DNA from: Flavobacteriaceae bacterium
GTDB taxonomy: Bacteria; Bacteroidota; Bacteroidia; Flavobacteriales; Flavobacteriaceae
DNA length: 64,000 nucleotides
Assembly: GCA_947451475.1 (NCBI GenBank)
Contig: CANFZC010000004.1
Span: forward strand, 1-64,000
Reading direction: 5' to 3'
The notes below the pieces were generated by a model. It was not told the origin of the DNA, did not search any database, and saw only the letters and a list, made by a program, of their open reading frames with translations. Below, one piece after another: positions 1 through 12,868 of the stretch. Both the position numbers and the translations under genes were made by a program. How positions within the stretch are numbered: position 1 is the first letter of the stretch; the number at the start of each line of letters is the position of its first letter.

Positions 1-336
1 AGTTCTCGCTCCAATCCATAAGACATCAATATCATGTTCTAAAGCCAATTTTACGTGGGTAGCATTTGCCACTTCCGTCGCCATTAATAAACCCGTTTCA
101 GCTTTAGCTTTTTGTAACCATTTCAAACCCAAAGCTCCGACCCCTTCAAATCCGCCTGGTCGCGTCCTTGGTTTCCATATCCCCGCTCTATATATGCTGA
201 CATCAGAATTTTTTAATTCATGAGCTATTTTCAAAACTTGTTCTTCGGTTTCAGCACTGCATGGACCTGCAATTACCAAAGGATGGGTTAGTTTAAAATC
301 ATCCAGCCATTTTCTGTTTTCTAAAGTGATATTCAT
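1..336 (-). CDS. 3-deoxy-7-phosphoheptulonate (DAHP) synthase, probably fused to chorismate mutase; partial, runs off window start
   Basis: Minus-strand reading from ATG at 336: MNITLENRKWLDDFKLTHPLVIAGPCSAETEEQVLKIAHELK..; GPCSAE motif typical of the AroF/KDPG-type DAHP synthase; follows tyrA in the same operon. Confidence 0.85.
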   Translation of the reverse strand, partial: MNITLENRKWLDDFKLTHPLVIAGPCSAETEEQVLKIAHELKNSDVSIYRAGIWKPRTRPGGFEGVGALGLKWLQKAKAETGLLMATEVANATHVKLALEHDIDVLWIGART

Positions 337-339
337 AGC

Positions 340-1191
340 TTATTTTTTTCCGATTAATATTTCTTTTATCCTATTGGTATTCTGCATTTCATTGAACACC
401 TCTTCATAGTTTTCTTCCTCCAGTAACTTTTTAAAATGGGTCAAATTGACTATATATTCTTCTAAACTCTTAACAACATGTTCTTTATTTTGTTTAAAAA
501 TGGGAGTCCACATAGCAGGAGAACTTTTTGCTAATCGGACAGTGCTTTCAAATCCACTTCCTGCCATGTCAAAAATATCCCGCTCATCTTTCTCTATTTC
601 TACTACTGTTTTTCCTAACATGAATGAACTGATATGAGAAAGATGAGAGACATAAGCAATGTGCTTATCGTGGGCTTTAGGATCCATATACCGAATGCGC
701 ATTCCTAATCTTTTAAACAATTCCATTCCGATTTCTTGCAATTTAAAGGTTGTTTTTTCAACCTCGCATATAATATTCGTCTTTTCCCTAAAAAGGCCTC
801 TTACAGCCGCCAATGGACCTGAAAATTCAGTACCCGCTATAGGATGTGTTGCTAAATAATTTCTTCTATTTGGGTGCTTTTCGACCGCTTCACAAATAGG
901 CAATTTGGTTGAACCCACATCGATTACCAAAGTATGTTCCCCAACCTGATCCAATATATTTGGCAAAAGTACTAAACCAACATCAACTGGCACTGCCACA
1001 ATGATTATATCAGCCTCAGAAATAGTATCTAATGTCGCCTTTACATCAATTATTCCTAGCTTTAGAGCCTCATCTAGATGGGTTGCATTAGCATCTATAC
1101 CAAAGACTTTACTATTTTCATATTGCGCTTTAATATCAAGCGCTAAAGAGCCCCCTATCAACCCTATGCCAATTACATATATATTTTTCAT
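340..1191 (-). CDS. tyrA: prephenate dehydrogenase
   Basis: GIGLIGGSLALDIK Rossmann motif, ATHPIAGTEFSGP motif; in Phe/Tyr operon. Confidence 0.9.
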   Translation of the reverse strand: MKNIYVIGIGLIGGSLALDIKAQYENSKVFGIDANATHLDEALKLGIIDVKATLDTISEADIIIVAVPVDVGLVLLPNILDQVGEHTLVIDVGSTKLPICEAVEKHPNRRNYLATHPIAGTEFSGPLAAVRGLFREKTNIICEVEKTTFKLQEIGMELFKRLGMRIRYMDPKAHDKHIAYVSHLSHISSFMLGKTVVEIEKDERDIFDMAGSGFESTVRLAKSSPAMWTPIFKQNKEHVVKSLEEYIVNLTHFKKLLEEENYEEVFNEMQNTNRIKEILIGKK

Positions 1192-1200
1192 ATGACTTAA

Positions 1201-2346
1201 TTAAAATCTTGAAATAGCCTCCACTATTCTTTCTTCGGTAGCACACAATGAGAATCGAATATATCCCTCGCCATTACTGCCAAATATAGTCCCCGGCGTA
1301 ATGAAAATATTTTTCTCAATCAATACTTTATCAATAAATGCTTCTGCTGAATCAATTCCTTCTGGGAGCTTAGCCCAAACAAATAAGCCAACAGTATTTT
1401 TATCAAAAGTACAATTCAACTTCATTGCTAGTTGAAAAATCAATTTTCTCCTTTTTGTATAAATTTCATCCTGCAGCTTGAACCAATCTTTGCCTAGTTT
1501 TAATGCGGCTACTGCACCCTTTTGAATTCCATAAAACATGCCACTATCCATGTTACTTTTAACTTTTAAAACAGCGTCAATAAATTGCACATTTCCCATG
1601 ACCATGCCCACTCGCCATCCAGCCATATTATATGTTTTCGATAAAGAATTCAATTCTAATGCCACATCTTTAGCGCCCTTTACCTGCAGTATTGAAATGG
1701 GATTGTTATTCAATATAAAACTATATGGATTGTCATTAATAATTAAAATTTTATGCTTTTTCCCAAATGCTATTAACTTTTCAAACAATTCAAGCGTTCC
1801 ATTAACACCTGTTGGCATGTGCGGATAGGAAACCCACATAATCTTTACTTTCGTTAAATCATGTTGTTCCAATTGTTCAAAATTTGGCTTCCAACCATTT
1901 TGTTCATTTAGATCATAAAAAACCGGTTTTGCTTGAACTAATTCGGTTACTGAGGTATAGGTAGGATAAGCTGGATTGGGTATTAAAACCTCATCCCCTT
2001 CATTCAAAAAAGCCAAAGAAATATGCATAATTCCTTCTTTGGAACCCATTAATGGCAAAATTTCAGCATTATCATCCAAGCTAACGCCAAAATGTTGGAG
2101 GTAAAAATTAGCCATTTCTTTTCGCAACTCGGGTAACCCTTGATAACTTTGATATTCATGAGCTTTTGCTTCAAACATCGCTTTATTCATTGCCTCAATA
2201 ACTCTTGGGTCGGGTGCTAAATCGGGGCTACCGATGCCCATATTGATGATTGGTTTTCCTTCTGCAAGCATTATACGTACTTCACGTAACTTTCTAGAAA
2301 AGTAGTATTCCTCGACACTGTTTAATCTGTTCGCTGTTCGTATCAT
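1201..2346 (-). CDS. pyridoxal phosphate-dependent aminotransferase (class I/II), likely aromatic branch
   Basis: NPAYPTYTS, SLSKTYNMAGWRVGM PLP-Lys motif; overlaps pheA stop by 1 nt (TAATG). Confidence 0.88.
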   Translation of the reverse strand: MIRTANRLNSVEEYYFSRKLREVRIMLAEGKPIINMGIGSPDLAPDPRVIEAMNKAMFEAKAHEYQSYQGLPELRKEMANFYLQHFGVSLDDNAEILPLMGSKEGIMHISLAFLNEGDEVLIPNPAYPTYTSVTELVQAKPVFYDLNEQNGWKPNFEQLEQHDLTKVKIMWVSYPHMPTGVNGTLELFEKLIAFGKKHKILIINDNPYSFILNNNPISILQVKGAKDVALELNSLSKTYNMAGWRVGMVMGNVQFIDAVLKVKSNMDSGMFYGIQKGAVAALKLGKDWFKLQDEIYTKRRKLIFQLAMKLNCTFDKNTVGLFVWAKLPEGIDSAEAFIDKVLIEKNIFITPGTIFGSNGEGYIRFSLCATEERIVEAISRF

Positions 2347-3170
2347 TACTTTCTATTTTTATATTCGCCCAACACTTTGAAATGATTGGTCATAATTTCT
2401 ACTATTTTGGTTGCTTTCTCATAGTGCTTATACTTTTCAAATACCACATCTACAAAGAATGAATACTGAAACGGCGTTTCTATTATGGGCATCGATTGTA
2501 TTTTTGTTAAATTCAATTTACAATTCGTCATTACATTCAGAACGGTGGCCAAACTCCCCGGCGTATCATCTAATTCAAATTTAATAGAGGCTTTATTGAT
2601 TTCCTCTTTAGACCATTCATTTTTCGTTTTACTAATGATGAAAAAGCGAGTCATGTTATTGTTTACCGTTTGAATCTCTGGAGCAATTATTTTTAAATCA
2701 TATAGATTGGCCGCTACTTTGCTTCCTATTGCTGCGATTCCTTTGATTTGCTTTTCATGAATGCGCCTAGCCGTTTCTGCGGTATCTTTATCTTCCACCA
2801 ATTTAATTTGAGGGTACTTTTTTAAGAATTCCATACATTGTAGCAAAGCCATGGGATGGGAATGCACCTCTTGTATATCCTCCAAGCTCTGGCCATCCAA
2901 CACCATTAAATTTTGTATTATCTCCAAATAGTATTCACCAATAATATGCAACTCATTCTTATCAATCAATGCATAATTTGGTATAATAGATCCTGCAATG
3001 GAATTTTCAATCGCCATCACAGCTTGTTGGGATTGATTGTTCACCAAACTGTCGGTCAAAGCTTCAAAAGACAAGCATTCATCTACTGATACATTCTCCT
3101 GAAAATACTCTAGTGCCACCTGATGGTGAAACGATCCTTTAATCCCTTGTATGGCTATTTTTTCTTTCAT
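2346..3170 (-). CDS. pheA: prephenate dehydratase (with C-terminal ACT domain)
   Basis: IQGIKGSFHH, ENSIAGSI, NNMTRFFIIS, and ACT-type ELDDTPGSLATVLN. ORF track starts at TTG 3179; ATG at 3170 is more likely because the upstream bases are the terminator U-tract. Confidence 0.9.
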   Translation of the reverse strand: MKEKIAIQGIKGSFHHQVALEYFQENVSVDECLSFEALTDSLVNNQSQQAVMAIENSIAGSIIPNYALIDKNELHIIGEYYLEIIQNLMVLDGQSLEDIQEVHSHPMALLQCMEFLKKYPQIKLVEDKDTAETARRIHEKQIKGIAAIGSKVAANLYDLKIIAPEIQTVNNNMTRFFIISKTKNEWSKEEINKASIKFELDDTPGSLATVLNVMTNCKLNLTKIQSMPIIETPFQYSFFVDVVFEKYKHYEKATKIVEIMTNHFKVLGEYKNRK

Positions 3171-3177
3171 AATAATC

Positions 3178-3207
3178 AAAAAAAAATCCCAACTCTCGTT
3201 GGGATTT
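3178..3207 (-). terminator. attenuator terminator upstream of pheA
   Basis: RNA sense: AAATCCCAAC-GAGA-GTTGGGATTT followed by a run of T; 10-bp perfect stem, GNRA-type loop, directly before the pheA start. Confidence 0.9.
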
Positions 3208-3227
3208 ATATCTCGTATGTTTTCTTT

Positions 3228-3317
3228 TTATTTTTTAACATAACACAATACTAATCCCTTTTTCTGTCCGAAGAAGAAATAAAAGAAATAGTTATAATAA
3301 GTGTTGAATGTTCTCAT
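3228..3317 (-). CDS. Phe/Tyr-rich attenuation leader peptide (29 aa: MRTFNTYYNYFFYFFFGQKKGLVLCYVKK)
   Basis: ATG 3317 to TAA 3228; 10 of the first 16 residues are Phe/Tyr; sits between a probable promoter and the attenuator terminator. Confidence 0.88.
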   Translation of the reverse strand: MRTFNTYYNYFFYFFFGQKKGLVLCYVKK

Positions 3318-3473
3318 TTATCATTTTGTGTTCTGCTAATGTAAAAAATAAAAGTGTAGGTTTTACATTAAACTAACTAAAAAATTACTCCAACGTTTTC
3401 GTCACACATGTTAAAAACTGTATTTCTTCTTTATCGATTCATTAATTATTACATTTGTGACAAATTAGTTACT

Positions 3474-4373
3474 ATGTCAATAGAAGTTCAGAACATTTCC
3501 AAAAGTTACGGCACTCAAAAAGCATTAGACCAAGTTTCTTTTTCAATCAAAAAAGGAGAAATTGTAGGTTTCCTAGGCCCTAATGGTGCTGGAAAATCAA
3601 CTTTAATGAAAATACTAACGACATTTATTACTGCTGATTCGGGAACTGCTGCAGTAAATGGATTCGACCTAAATGAAGCGCCATTAAAAGTTCAGCAATC
3701 TGTTGGTTATTTACCCGAGCACAATCCATTATACTTGGACCTCTATGTGCGCGAATATTTAGCATTTAATGCTGATGTTTATAAAGTAGCTAAATCTCGT
3801 ATCGAGGAAGTTATAGTGCTTACCGGATTAACCCCGGAAAGCCATAAAAAAATCGGGCAATTATCTAAAGGGTATCGACAACGTGTAGGACTTGCTACAG
3901 CATTACTTCACAACCCAGATGTGTTAATATTAGACGAACCCACAACAGGACTTGACCCAAACCAATTGGTAGAAATTCGGAACGTTATAAAGAATGTAGG
4001 CAAAGACAAAACTGTATTTCTTTCAACTCACATTATGCAAGAAGTAGAAGCTATTTGTGACCGGGTAATCATTATTGATAATGGCAAAATTGTAACTGAT
4101 AAAAAACTAGATAAATTAGTAACTGAAGAGAAAGAACAAATCATTGAAGTTGAATTTGACAAAGTCGTTGAGGCAGCTTTATTGGCAAATTTACCCAACA
4201 TAAAAAGCTATAAAAACAGCAATGGAAACCATTGGCTACTAACGTTCACGACCGAAGTGGATATGAGACCAATGCTATTTGATTTTGCAAATGAACAGGG
4301 TTTAAAAACACTACAAATTAGTTTGAAAAACAAAAACCTAGAACAAATATTTCGTGAAAAAACGAAATACTAA
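3474..4373 (+). CDS. gldA: gliding-motility-type ABC transporter ATP-binding subunit GldA
   Basis: Walker A GPNGAGKST, signature LSKGYRQRVGLA, Walker B VLILDEPTTGLDP; GldA-like N-terminus MSIEVQNISKSYGTQKAL. ATG at 3474 is preferred over ORF start 3408 because TACATTTG (3450-3457) looks like a -7 promoter element. Confidence 0.85.
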   Translation: MSIEVQNISKSYGTQKALDQVSFSIKKGEIVGFLGPNGAGKSTLMKILTTFITADSGTAAVNGFDLNEAPLKVQQSVGYLPEHNPLYLDLYVREYLAFNADVYKVAKSRIEEVIVLTGLTPESHKKIGQLSKGYRQRVGLATALLHNPDVLILDEPTTGLDPNQLVEIRNVIKNVGKDKTVFLSTHIMQEVEAICDRVIIIDNGKIVTDKKLDKLVTEEKEQIIEVEFDKVVEAALLANLPNIKSYKNSNGNHWLLTFTTEVDMRPMLFDFANEQGLKTLQISLKNKNLEQIFREKTKY

Positions 4374-7428: not shown

Positions 7429-10092
7429 TTAATCAGCTATATTTGGTGCTAACCATTTGTTGGCCATTTCGGTAGATATTCCTCTACGTTTGGCATATTC
7501 TATTACTTGATCTTCTTTAATTTTTCCTAATCCAAAATACTTGCTTTCGGGATGGGCAAAATAATACCCAGAGACTGACGCTGCTGGCCACATGGCCATA
7601 CTTTCAGTTAAGGTTACTCCGATTTCATTTTCTACATTTAATAATTTCCATATAGTTGGTTTTTCTAAATGATCTGGACAAGCTGGATATCCTGGTGCTG
7701 GGCGAATTCCTTTATATTCTTCATCTATCAAATCTTGATTTGATAGACATTCTTCAGAGGCATAACCCCAAATTTCCCTGCGCACTTTTAGATGTAAAAA
7801 TTCGGCAAATGCTTCTGCCAGCCTATCGCCCAGAGCTTTGACTAATATGGAATTATAATCGTCCAGTTGTTTCTCGAATTCGGTTGCTTTTTCATCGACT
7901 CCAAATCCTGTTGTAACGCAAAAACAGCCAATGTAATCTTGTTTTCCAGAATCTTTTGGCGCTATAAAATCGGCCAAGGCTATGTTAGGAGCTCCAGCTG
8001 TTTTTTGAGATTGTTGGCGTAATGTCAAAAGTCGAAAGTCGGAAGTTGAAAGTTGAATATCGTCATCATTGATTGTGTTGGCTGGAAATATCCCTAAAAT
8101 CCCTTTGGCAGTCAACCATTTTTCTGCCACAATTTGCTGCAACATTTTTTGGGCATCATCAAATAAAGCAGTGGCTTGTTCACCCACTACCACATCCGTT
8201 AAAATGGCAGGATATTTTCCGTGCAATTCCCACGATTGGAAGAAAGGTGTCCAATCGATAAAATCAACTAATTCAGATAGCTCCACTTCAACTGTTTTAC
8301 TCCCTATGAAATTGGGTTTAATTGGATTAAAATTATCCCAATTCAATTGTAATTTATTTTTCCGAGCATCTTCGATAGACAGAAAGTTTTTATCTCTACT
8401 TCTACTCAAATAACCTTCTCGTAATTTATTGTATTCATCCCGAACTGCTTTAGCATATTCTTGCTTCGTTTCAGCTTGTAACAAATTGCTTGCCACGGTT
8501 ACCGCACGAGACGCGTCGTTTACATGGACCACCGTCTCCTTATACTCAGGTGCAATTTTTACTGCTGTATGCGCACGAGAAGTAGTTGCACCACCAATCA
8601 TTATTGGAATTTTGATGTTGAGTTTGTCCATTTCTTTGGCCAAATAAACCATTTCGTCGAGTGATGGAGTAATCAATCCACTCAACCCAATGATATCTAC
8701 ATCATGCTCTATTGCTGCTTGAATGATTTTTTCGGGTGGTACCATAACACCCAAATCGATGATTTCAAAATTGTTGCAACCTAAAACAACCGCTACAATA
8801 TTTTTCCCAATATCGTGTACATCCCCTTTTACAGTGGCCATCAATACTTTACCAGCCGAAGCTGATTTTCCTTCTTTTTGAGCTTCAATAAAGGGCAATA
8901 AATAGGCAACCGCTTTTTTCATTACACGAGCAGATTTCACAACTTGAGGTAAAAACATTTTTCCACTTCCAAACAAATCCCCGACAACATTCATTCCAGC
9001 CATCAAATTAATTTCAATGACATCAATAGCTTTTTCAGAAGAGGCTCTTGCTTCTTCCACATCTATTTCAATGAACTCATCAATTCCTTTCACTAAGGAA
9101 TGAGTTAATCGCTCTTGAACTGAACCATTACGCCATTCTTGAATTGTCTTTTCATTTACTTTAAAATCGCCTTTGAAACTCTCGGCTAAATCAAGTAATC
9201 GCTCTGTTGCATCCTCTCTTCTGTTCAACAAAACATCTTCAACATGTTCTAATAATATCGGGTCGATTTCATCATAAATCTCAAGCATCTCTGGATTTAC
9301 AATTCCCATCGTCATTCCGTTTTTGATAGCATGATACAAGAACGCCGAATGCATCGCCTCACGCACTTTGTCATTTCCACGGAACGAAAATGACACATTA
9401 CTAACGCCACCTGAAATTCCGGCATATGGCAAATTTTCACGAATCCATTTGGTCGCTTTAAAGAAATCTAAAGCATTTAATTTGTGTTCATCCATTCCCG
9501 TTGCCACTGGGAAAATATTTGGGTCAAAAATGATGTCTTCGGCTGGAAAACGCACTTCATTTACCAGAATATCATAACTCCTTTTACAGATTTCAATCCG
9601 TCTTTCGTAGGTATCTGCTTGACCGTCCTCATCAAAAGCCATTACAATAACAGCCGCTCCATATCTTTTTATCAACTTGGCATGATGGATAAAAGCCTCC
9701 TTTCCTTCTTTTAATGAAATAGAATTTACGATACCTTTTCCTTGAACAACTTTTAATCCAGCTTCAATAATTTCCCATTTTGAACTATCAATCATCACGG
9801 GAACGCGCGCTATATCTGGCTCGGCAGCTATTAGATTTAAGAATTTGGTCATGGCATAAACACCATCCAACATTCCTTCATCCATATTAACATCAATAAT
9901 TTGAGCACCCCCTTCAACCTGCTCTCTCGCGACTGAAAGTGCTTCTTCATATTTCTCTTCTTTAATTAATCGAAGAAATTTGCGGGAGCCCGTTACATTA
10001 GTTCGTTCTCCAACGTTTATAAAATTCGATTTTGGAGTAACTATTAGTGGCTCCAAACCTGATAATCTTAAATATTTAAATGCTTCAGCCAT
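7429..10092 (-). CDS. metH: methionine synthase, C-terminal part (pterin-binding, cobalamin-binding and activation domains)
   Basis: [14 protein letters not shown] pterin domain; [13 protein letters not shown] cobalamin motif (DxHxxG); activation domain [15 protein letters not shown]. Start [10 protein letters not shown] at 10092, overlapping the stop of the upstream ORF by 1 nt. Confidence 0.92.
8021..8062. repeat. six-unit heptamer tandem repeat inside metH
   Basis: AATGTCA AAAGTCG AAAGTCG GAAGTTG AAAGTTG AATATCG; encodes the in-frame insert [14 protein letters not shown] in the translated protein. Confidence 0.8.
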
Positions 10093-11081
10093 TATATTGT
10101 TTCTAAAATTGTTCTTGGTTTGAATTCCCTTGCAACATCGGCTATTGCTTTTATATGTTCTGGAGTTGTACCACAGCACCCTCCTATAATATTAACTAAA
10201 TTGTCTTGTAAATATTCCTTAATCAATGCTTGCATTTCCAAAGGGGTTTGATCGTATTGACCGAAAGCATTTGGCAAACCTGCATTTGGATGTGCCGAAA
10301 TATTCAATTGAGTATTCAGTGCCAATCGCTTTAAATAGGGTTTTAATTGATCTGCACCTAGGGCACAATTAAACCCTATACTTAAAAGAGGTATGTGTGC
10401 TATTGAAATTAAAAAAGCTTCAACTGTTTGGCCTGATAGCGTTCTTCCTGAGGCGTCGGTAATTGTTCCAGAAACCATTACTGGAATCTCAATATTGCGT
10501 TCTTCTTTTACTTCTTCAATTGCAAATAAGGCTGCTTTAGCATTAAGGGTATCAAAGATAGTTTCAACTAAAAGCACATCCACACCGCCGTCTATTAAAG
10601 CTTCCACTTGTTGTTTATAGGCAATCCGCAAATCATCAAAAGTGACCGCACGAAACCCAGGGTCATTCACATCTGGTGACATTGATGCAGTTCGATTGGT
10701 AGGACCTATAGAGCCCGCAACAAATCGTGGTCGATCTGTGAACTCATCTGCCACCTCTCTTGCGATTTTGGCTGATTCGAAGTTTAATTCGTAGACTAAA
10801 TCTTCTAGATAATAGTCTGACATTCCAATAGTAGTTCCTGAAAATGTATTGGTTTCTACAATATCAGCACCCGCTTGAAAATACAAACGATGCACTGCTT
10901 TCACAGCTTGAGGTTGTGTTATAGAAAGCAAATCGTTATTTCCTTTTAATGGGTGTGGAAAATCTTTAAACCGTTCACCCCGAAAATCTTCTTCAGAGAA
11001 ATTATTTCTTTGAAGCATAGTACCCATAGCACCATCTAAGACTAGAATTCTTTCTTTGATGGCTTCTTTAATTTTTGACAT
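10092..11081 (-). CDS. metH: methionine synthase, N-terminal homocysteine-binding part
   Basis: [27 protein letters not shown] zinc/homocysteine motifs. Confidence 0.92.
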
Positions 11082-11160: not shown

Positions 11161-11240
11161 GGGCACTAGTACCAATTGCTTCGCTCAGGAGCTCCTAAAA
11201 TATAGTATGTGTTATCTGGAAAGTGAGAAGAATTCTCTGG

Positions 11241-11341
11241 GTTATCTGTTCTCAATTCAATGAGATAGAATGTAGCACCTTCTTTTGGCAAAGGGTTGCT
11301 AAGCTTTCAACGGGTCTATTCCCTCCAGCTTTCGTGATAAC
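11241..11341 (-). ncRNA. SAM-I (S-box) riboswitch aptamer
   Basis: RNA sense: GTTATC(P1)ACGAAAGCTGGAGGGAATAGACCCGTTGAAAGCTTAGCAACCCTTTGCCAAAAGAAGGTGCTACATTCTATCTCATTGAATTGAGAACAGATAAC(P1'); has S-box core GAGGGA..GAAAGC..GCAACC..GGTGCTA, P4 hairpin and 6-bp P1; upstream of metH. Confidence 0.93.
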
Positions 11342-11458
11342 AAACAATACGATTATGAACGGTACAAAGTAAGAACATAGAAATGGGATTTGCAAGCAAA
11401 TTAAAAAAATAAAAACCTACAACGATGTAGTTGCGATTTAAAAAAAAACAAAGATTAA

Positions 11459-11488: not shown

Positions 11489-11498
11489 CACACGAAAA

Positions 11499-11550
11499 TA
11501 GGAGGAAAAATTTGAACTGATTGCAACCTCGTTAAAAAATGCTAAAGCAG
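11499..11550 (+). ncRNA. SAM-II-like riboswitch aptamer
   Basis: AGGAGGAAAAATTTGAACTGATTGCAACCTCGTTAAAAAATGCTAAAGCAG matches SAM-II pattern P1(GAGG)-AUUUGA-UUGCA-P1'(CCUC)-GUUAAA-GCUAAAGC; immediately upstream of metK. Confidence 0.85.
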
Positions 11551-11617
11551 AAACTCTCCTTTAGCATCCCCTGCAATCTTCTTTTTCAATATAATAATAT
11601 TAAACTAAATTATAGTT

Positions 11618-12868
11618 ATGGCTTATTTATTTACGTCGGAGTCAGTGAGTGAAGGACATCCAGACAAGGTGGCAGACCAAATTAGTGATGCATTAATCGA
11701 CAACTTTTTGGCATTTGATGCCGAGTCAAAAGTAGCTTGTGAAACTTTGGTTACGACAGGTCAAGTGATATTGGCTGGAGAAGTTAAATCAAGTACTTAT
11801 CTTGATGTCCAACAAATTGCAAGAGAAGTTATTCGTAAAATCGGATATACTAAAAGCGAATATATGTTTGAAGCCGATTCTTGTGGTGTATTATCTGCAA
11901 TTCACGAACAATCTGCTGATATCAATCAGGGAGTTGACAGAGCGAGCAAAGAAGAGCAAGGAGCTGGAGACCAAGGTATGATGTTTGGCTACGCTACCAA
12001 TGAAACTGAAAACTATATGCCATTGGCATTAGATTTATCACATGCTTTGTTAATCGAATTAGCTAATTTAAGAAGAGAAAATAGTGAAATTAAATATCTT
12101 CGCCCTGATGCAAAATCACAAGTTACTTTAGAGTATTCTGACGATAACAAACCTGTAAGAATTGATGCCATTGTAATTTCAACGCAACATGATGATTTTG
12201 CAGATGAAGCCACTATGCTTGCTAAAATTAAAAGTGACTTAATTTCCATTTTAATCCCTAGAATTAAGGCTAAATATCCTCAATATGCCCATTTCTTTAA
12301 TGACAATATCACCTACCACATCAATCCAACAGGTAAATTTGTAATTGGTGGACCTCATGGAGATACAGGATTAACTGGGCGAAAAATTATTGTAGATACT
12401 TATGGTGGAAAAGGCGCTCACGGTGGTGGTGCGTTCTCCGGAAAAGATCCATCTAAAGTTGACCGTTCTGCTGCTTATGCTACACGTCACATTGCTAAAA
12501 ACCTAGTAGCTGCAGGTTTGTGCGACGAAATATTAGTTCAAGTTTCTTACGCCATTGGAGTTGCTAAACCAACATCCATAAATGTTAATACCTATGGAAC
12601 TTCAAAAATAAACATGACAGATGGAGAAATTAGTAAAGTTGTGGAAGGTATTTTTGATATGCGACCTTACTTTATAGAGCAACGTTTAAAATTAAGAAAC
12701 CCAATTTACAGCGAAACTGCTGCTTATGGGCATATGGGAAGAACTCCTCAAACGGTTAACAAAACGTTCCAGTTACCAAATGGACAACCTAAAACAGTTA
12801 CGGTAGAATTATTTACTTGGGAGAAACTAGACTTCGTAGATAAAGTCAAAGCTGCTTTTGGATTGTAA
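11618..12868 (+). CDS. metK: S-adenosylmethionine synthetase
   Basis: [49 protein letters not shown] motifs. Confidence 0.97.

Follow-up and report, generated by a model that had tools for sequence, protein, structure and literature searches.

Transcription of the pheA operon at the left end of the window (the whole stretch of DNA analysed, 64,000 nt) is very probably governed by ribosome-mediated attenuation, with Phe and Tyr codons of a short leader peptide as control codons; we give this reading a probability of about 0.93. Comparison of homologous upstream regions shows, at the level of sequence, the ORF and its in-frame selection, three predicted helices, their conservation and their geometry; from these we infer that in the cell the leader is translated, ribosomes stall on it, and termination occurs and can be relieved.

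The pheA locus and its leader

The genome is a Flavobacterium, a draft or metagenome assembly of 134 contigs; among named species, pheA places F. aquatile and F. dankookense nearest to it (protein identity 89%). Minus-strand features run from 3343 to the end of the contig in the order promoter-like box, leader ORF, terminator, pheA, aminotransferase, tyrA and a DAHP synthase-like start. The features are as follows.

3336..3343, minus: promoter -7-like box TACATTAG, by the Bacteroidetes consensus TAnnTTTG
3322..3324, minus: extra out-of-frame ATG (frame MINENIQHLL, then stop), 7 nt 5′ of the leader start, by sequence reading
3228..3317, minus: leader peptide ORF, ATG 3317 to TAA 3228, encoding MRTFNTYYNYFFYFFFGQKKGLVLCYVKK; by sequence reading and a family-wide F/Y block pN/pS of 0.18 in frame 0
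3270..3308, minus: control codons, first to last Phe/Tyr in the run, by sequence and position scan
3265..3288, minus: segment 1, U/C-rich codon stretch predicted to pair with segment 2 (1:2 helix), boundaries approximate; by fold of the window with 24 close relatives and family pair counts
3237..3258, minus: segment 2, 5′ strand of the antiterminator, with its core GGGATT (3253-3258) and an extension as far as 3237; by comparison and fold
3198..3220, minus: segment 3, 3′ strand of the antiterminator, which overlaps the 5′ arm of the terminator (3198-3207); by comparison and fold
3184..3207, minus: intrinsic terminator hairpin (3:4), 10 bp, GAGA loop; by terminator scan and family comparison
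3178..3186, minus: terminator T run, 9 T, by sequence reading
2346..3170, minus: pheA, prephenate dehydratase with ACT domain (Pfam PF00800, 3.3e-57; the ACT match falls under its cut-off)
1201..2346, minus: class I/II aminotransferase (Pfam PF00155, 1.5e-55)
340..1191, minus: tyrA, prephenate dehydrogenase (Pfam PF02153, 1.7e-31)
1..336, minus: putative DAHP synthase-like gene, 5′ portion, an open frame of 112 aa truncated by the contig end

We take the last frame to be DAHP synthase-like from its sequence and from the initial annotation of this DNA, which had also described a Phe/Tyr-rich leader at 3317-3228. That ORF is there, and 10 of its first 16 residues are F or Y; it has no Trp codon, whereas most relatives outside Flavobacterium have one. 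The terminator lies where it had been placed, at 3207-3178, as AAATCCCAAC-GAGA-GTTGGGATTT followed by nine T, and this hairpin with its T run is the only terminator-like site within 3100-3500 (shuffles give 0.1). It ends 7 nt 5′ of the pheA ATG (3170). The antiterminator pairing of GGGATTAGTATT (3258-3247) with GATATAAATCCC (3212-3201) likewise has one A-A mismatch and two wobbles, exactly as claimed.

A box of the form TAnnTT[A/T]G, close to the Bacteroidetes -7 consensus TAnnTTTG (PMC7366714), is found in 123/129 homologous upstream regions, mostly 10-24 nt 5′ of the leader ATG, and in 9% of shuffles. Family leaders have a Bacteroidetes-type start context, 81% of them having A at -3 and 67% at -6; A at -3 has a role in the start context (PMC6847099), and this context together with the position of the -7-like box fits initiation without Shine-Dalgarno sites (PMC6847099). 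The ATG at 3324-3322 has no out-of-frame counterpart in the nearest relatives of the window. Since AUG is said to be underrepresented close to start codons in this phylum (PMC6847099), this copy may reflect an error in assembly or else a local weakening, and it could lower leader translation in this genome.

When the own genome was searched with an RNA model, the pheA leader ranked first (50.9 bits). The second match (43.7 bits), on the other strand in a gap between two genes, was rejected, as was a long tail of weak matches that are apparently ordinary terminators and AT-rich DNA. In the same assembly, which is 92% complete, the hisG and ilvD families gave no match and the trpE search a weak chorismate-enzyme match only; the organism is perhaps a His/Trp/branched-chain auxotroph, or these genes are absent from the incomplete assembly. 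Elsewhere in the window, a SAM riboswitch (11239-11343, minus) and a SAM-II riboswitch (11496-11555, plus) lie back to back in one intergenic region and face a MetH-like gene (10092-11081) and a metK-like gene (11618-12868), names read from sequence.

Conservation, selection and covariation

We sampled 300 Flavobacteriaceae genomes, one per species, found pheA in 271 and read 130 upstream regions. The initial annotation had proposed aligning pheA upstream regions of related flavobacteria as a check; leader, terminator and antiterminator were found in 130/130, which favours an attenuator. A leader detector requiring an ATG ORF with at least seven F/Y/W in 14 residues was positive at 129/130 of these regions (ORF length 17-29 codons), at 0/30 before hisG, at 0/30 before trpE and in 1.9% of shuffled sequences. 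The exception, L064, has the device too, >500 nt upstream of pheA and separated from it by tandem repeats; at L423/L064 (G013:C21) several copies of a ~115-nt repeat stand between attenuator and pheA. Among the 80 named genomes nearest the window, the leader is present in all whose upstream sequence is long enough; in two of them it begins, by reading, with TTG or GTG. The T run begins most often ~45 nt after the leader stop codon (129 regions), and in 129/129 measured the terminator stem is at least 9 bp and the T run at least 5. The stop codon itself has moved: it stands directly before segment 2 in many Flavobacterium (L180-L238) and ~20 nt past segment 2 in the window's clade (L159-L176), across which the longer ORF is kept.

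The residues follow the operon. Before hisG there are His-rich leaders (LHHHHFH; 28/30 with at least three His in 14 residues) and before trpE NTWWWN leaders (29/30 with at least two Trp), both counted in Flavobacteriaceae (L293-L352), and there is no exchange of F/Y/W and His leaders. The hisG and trpE leaders thus look like a matching set of attenuators in the same family. The proposal that the Phe/Tyr codons fit the operon products agrees with this pattern of F/Y/W before pheA, His before hisG and WWW before trpE.

For type I leaders (23 codons), pN/pS of the F/Y block is 0.18 in frame 0 vs 2.16 and 0.51 in the two alternative frames; type II leaders give 0.45 in frame vs 1.22 and 0.81, the same order, less sharp. 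By these ratios purifying selection acts on the Phe/Tyr codons in frame 0 alone, and this, together with the A at -3, indirectly suggests that the short upstream ORF is translated.

Two alignments, A1 (63 sequences) and A2 (66 sequences), were folded with RNAalifold. Both gave the 3:4 terminator and a long 1:2 hairpin that pairs the F/Y/W codons to an A/G-rich stretch plus segment 2; with the terminator 3′ arm omitted, the 2:3 antiterminator appeared instead. A basal extension of 1:2 connects the first Tyr codons with the stop region. For 1:2 and 3:4 in A1, cells are paired in 90.6% vs 44-61% when slid, and 16 pairs have changed on both sides vs 7.8 in shuffles (0/500); the 2:3 helix has 91.2% (A1) and 99.2% (A2) paired cells. 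Segments 2, 3 and 4 read GGGAT/ATCCC/GGGAT in the window, GGGAC/GTCCC/GGGAC elsewhere and AGGAT/ATCCT/AGGAT in the genus mate L002, so that in each case all three strands differ together. Mapped on the pheA tree, the 2:3 core has 5-6 changes, none against the expected direction, with 3-4 well-supported independent pairs, too few events for the sign test on tree-corrected co-change of this core to be significant; deep conservation therefore carries the case for 2:3 more than covariation does. Run on the 24 closest relatives of the window, RNAalifold supported 2:3 for the GGGA:TCCC core only. In a swap control the raw 2:3 scores fell only slightly (15.3 vs 17.3), the core being identical in most genomes. 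Looking for compensatory changes in both helices had been proposed as a check; 1:2 and 3:4 have such changes, and the 2:3 core has too few for significance. Judged from the alignments, the full set of alternative helices, 1:2, 2:3 and 3:4, is conserved.

Ribosome position and competing readings

In the proposed mechanism transcription would start just 5′ of the leader ORF, and a ribosome would enter the leader by initiation independent of a Shine-Dalgarno site and trail RNA polymerase. When Phe-tRNA or Tyr-tRNA (in most relatives perhaps Trp-tRNA too) is scarce, the ribosome would wait on the F/Y run; stalled on segment 1, it would leave segment 2 (GGGATT...) free for segment 3, the 3:4 terminator would not form, and the pheA-aminotransferase-tyrA-DAHP synthase operon would be transcribed. 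With plentiful charged tRNA the ribosome would move over segment 2, after its passage 1:2 could re-form, segments 3 and 4 would pair, and transcription would stop 7 nt before pheA.

We modelled this by removing the RNA up to the leading edge of the ribosome, assumed to lie at the A-site +12 nt. Across the family, modelled pairing of segment 2 with the terminator 5′ arm is 0.70 with the ribosome on the F/Y/W codons; it starts dropping ~9 codons ahead of the stop, where it is 0.04. In the window it holds at 0.58 up to and including the last Phe codon, is 0.48 one codon further on and 0.04 two codons further on. The model puts the switch point one to two codons past the last Phe codon, in window and family alike, so that the control-codon run ends where the ribosome would begin covering segment 2. 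With upstream RNA allowed to pair, the window value goes from 0.58 to 0.07 and is at most 0.10 up to the stop; the family mean at the stop is then 0.35, not near zero. The initial annotation had a ribosome at the stop codon covering the antiterminator. With a normal footprint this would hold for the inner part only (GTATTGTGTTATG); GGGATT lies ~20-25 nt upstream of the P-site codon and would be left uncovered, because the ORF of the window's clade runs ~20 nt past segment 2. In the model, 1:2 re-forming behind the ribosome would hide GGGATT.

Four other readings were weighed. Control could be translational, alone or additionally, if the 3:4 hairpin beside the pheA start blocked initiation, and in the window and many relatives the hairpin does end within ~20 nt of pheA. 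We consider this unlikely, since T run and pheA are 50-230 nt apart in others and >500 nt apart in one, and a T run of at least 5 follows the hairpin wherever it was measured. A nascent leader that itself stalls the ribosome on a ligand (TnaC/SecM-like), rather than through uncharged tRNA, would account for conserved tails such as GQKKGLVLCYVKK and SKRNETLYV. These tails coincide with segment 2 and its helices, however, F and Y change places and replace one another freely inside the run and across families, and the hisG and trpE leaders of the same genomes bear the matching residue instead; an arrest peptide is accordingly very improbable. Slightly less credible still is a ligand- or protein-binding RNA, or a constitutive terminator, with the ORF incidental: the window terminator is strong alone (-13.3 kcal/mol, modelled), but the ORF is under purifying selection in frame and its residues match the operon, and a riboswitch or T-box before pheA was rejected, with no Rfam family matching at its curated score. 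Chance is refuted: on that reading F/Y-rich ORFs are common in AT-rich DNA, where TTT/TAT codons are frequent (1.9% of shuffles reach the detector threshold), and hairpins precede many genes, but 129/130 pheA regions stand against 0/60 before control operons, with position, spacing and helices conserved.

Distribution and known systems

Attenuation before pheA would reach beyond the family. Outside Flavobacteriaceae, 34/61 pheA upstream regions across the class have an F/Y/W-rich ATG ORF (shuffles 0.3%), in 13 or 14 other families, the doubtful one being f45; a terminator is also present with many of these leaders, e.g. in f41. In some genomes lacking the leader, pheA lies directly 3′ of another gene (e.g. 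L139-L141).

One further kind of leader and one candidate were seen along the way. Thr-rich leaders ending TTTPLG stand before thrA at L411 (own genome, C45, 473-578), L419, L420 and L421; they have an ACCCC...GGGG hairpin at the stop codon and no T-run terminator before thrA, possibly a different control mode. Ile/Val-rich short ORFs (e.g. MKLRVVIISVIVIIIIPW) lie 350-430 nt 5′ of an ilvD match at L354, L359, L362, L370 and others and are candidate leaders.

A broader proposal, which we put somewhat below even odds, is that in Bacteroidia, where initiation proceeds without Shine-Dalgarno sites, amino-acid operons (Phe/Tyr/Trp, His, Trp, probably Ile/Val and Thr) have leader-peptide attenuation as their common control, and that the pheA leader, with a fixed Trp codon in most genera, is a combined sensor of the three aromatic amino acids. 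If true, it needs tight coupling of transcription and translation, with the leader ORF only a few to ~20 nt from the 5′ end. Because translation starts without Shine-Dalgarno sites, the device implies that in these bacteria a ribosome has to load immediately and keep close behind RNA polymerase, which is testable. For annotators there is an ORF and an RNA element to gain, as Rfam 15 has no such family.

Among known systems, Bacteroid-trp (RF01692; Weinberg 2010, PMC2864571) is likewise a leader-peptide RNA of Bacteroidetes. It matches before trpE in relatives and, unlike the pheA leader, has Trp codons and belongs to the trp operon; it gave no match to the window pheA leader at its gathering score (49 bits). 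The Phe leader RF01859 shares the logic and the type of target. The window leader aligns to it weakly at full length with 28.1 bits (E 0.014), far below its gathering score of 55 bits, and differs in mixing Phe with Tyr codons and in preceding an operon that combines pheA, tyrA and DAHP synthase.

The nearest likeness is the pheA 5′ element of F. psychrophilum, the same gene in the same family as the window device. The transcriptome study of that species (ISME Commun 2021, PMC9723704) reports "strong clues" of leader-peptide attenuation before amino-acid operons, with pheA and hisG 5′ elements conserved in other Flavobacteriaceae genera and without an Rfam hit. Its main text settles the doubt of the initial annotation as to prior description, since a flavobacterial pheA element had already been reported; the peptide, alternative helices, covariation and distribution are not given in that main text, details that its supplement may hold. 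Going by that text, the pheA attenuator is a further case of a known control whose existence was noted in 2021, and its novelty is limited. Added here are a detailed proposed mechanism, its conservation and its wide distribution, by which the E. coli-type attenuator is extended, on firm comparative evidence, to the aromatic operon throughout Flavobacteriaceae and in many other Bacteroidia families.
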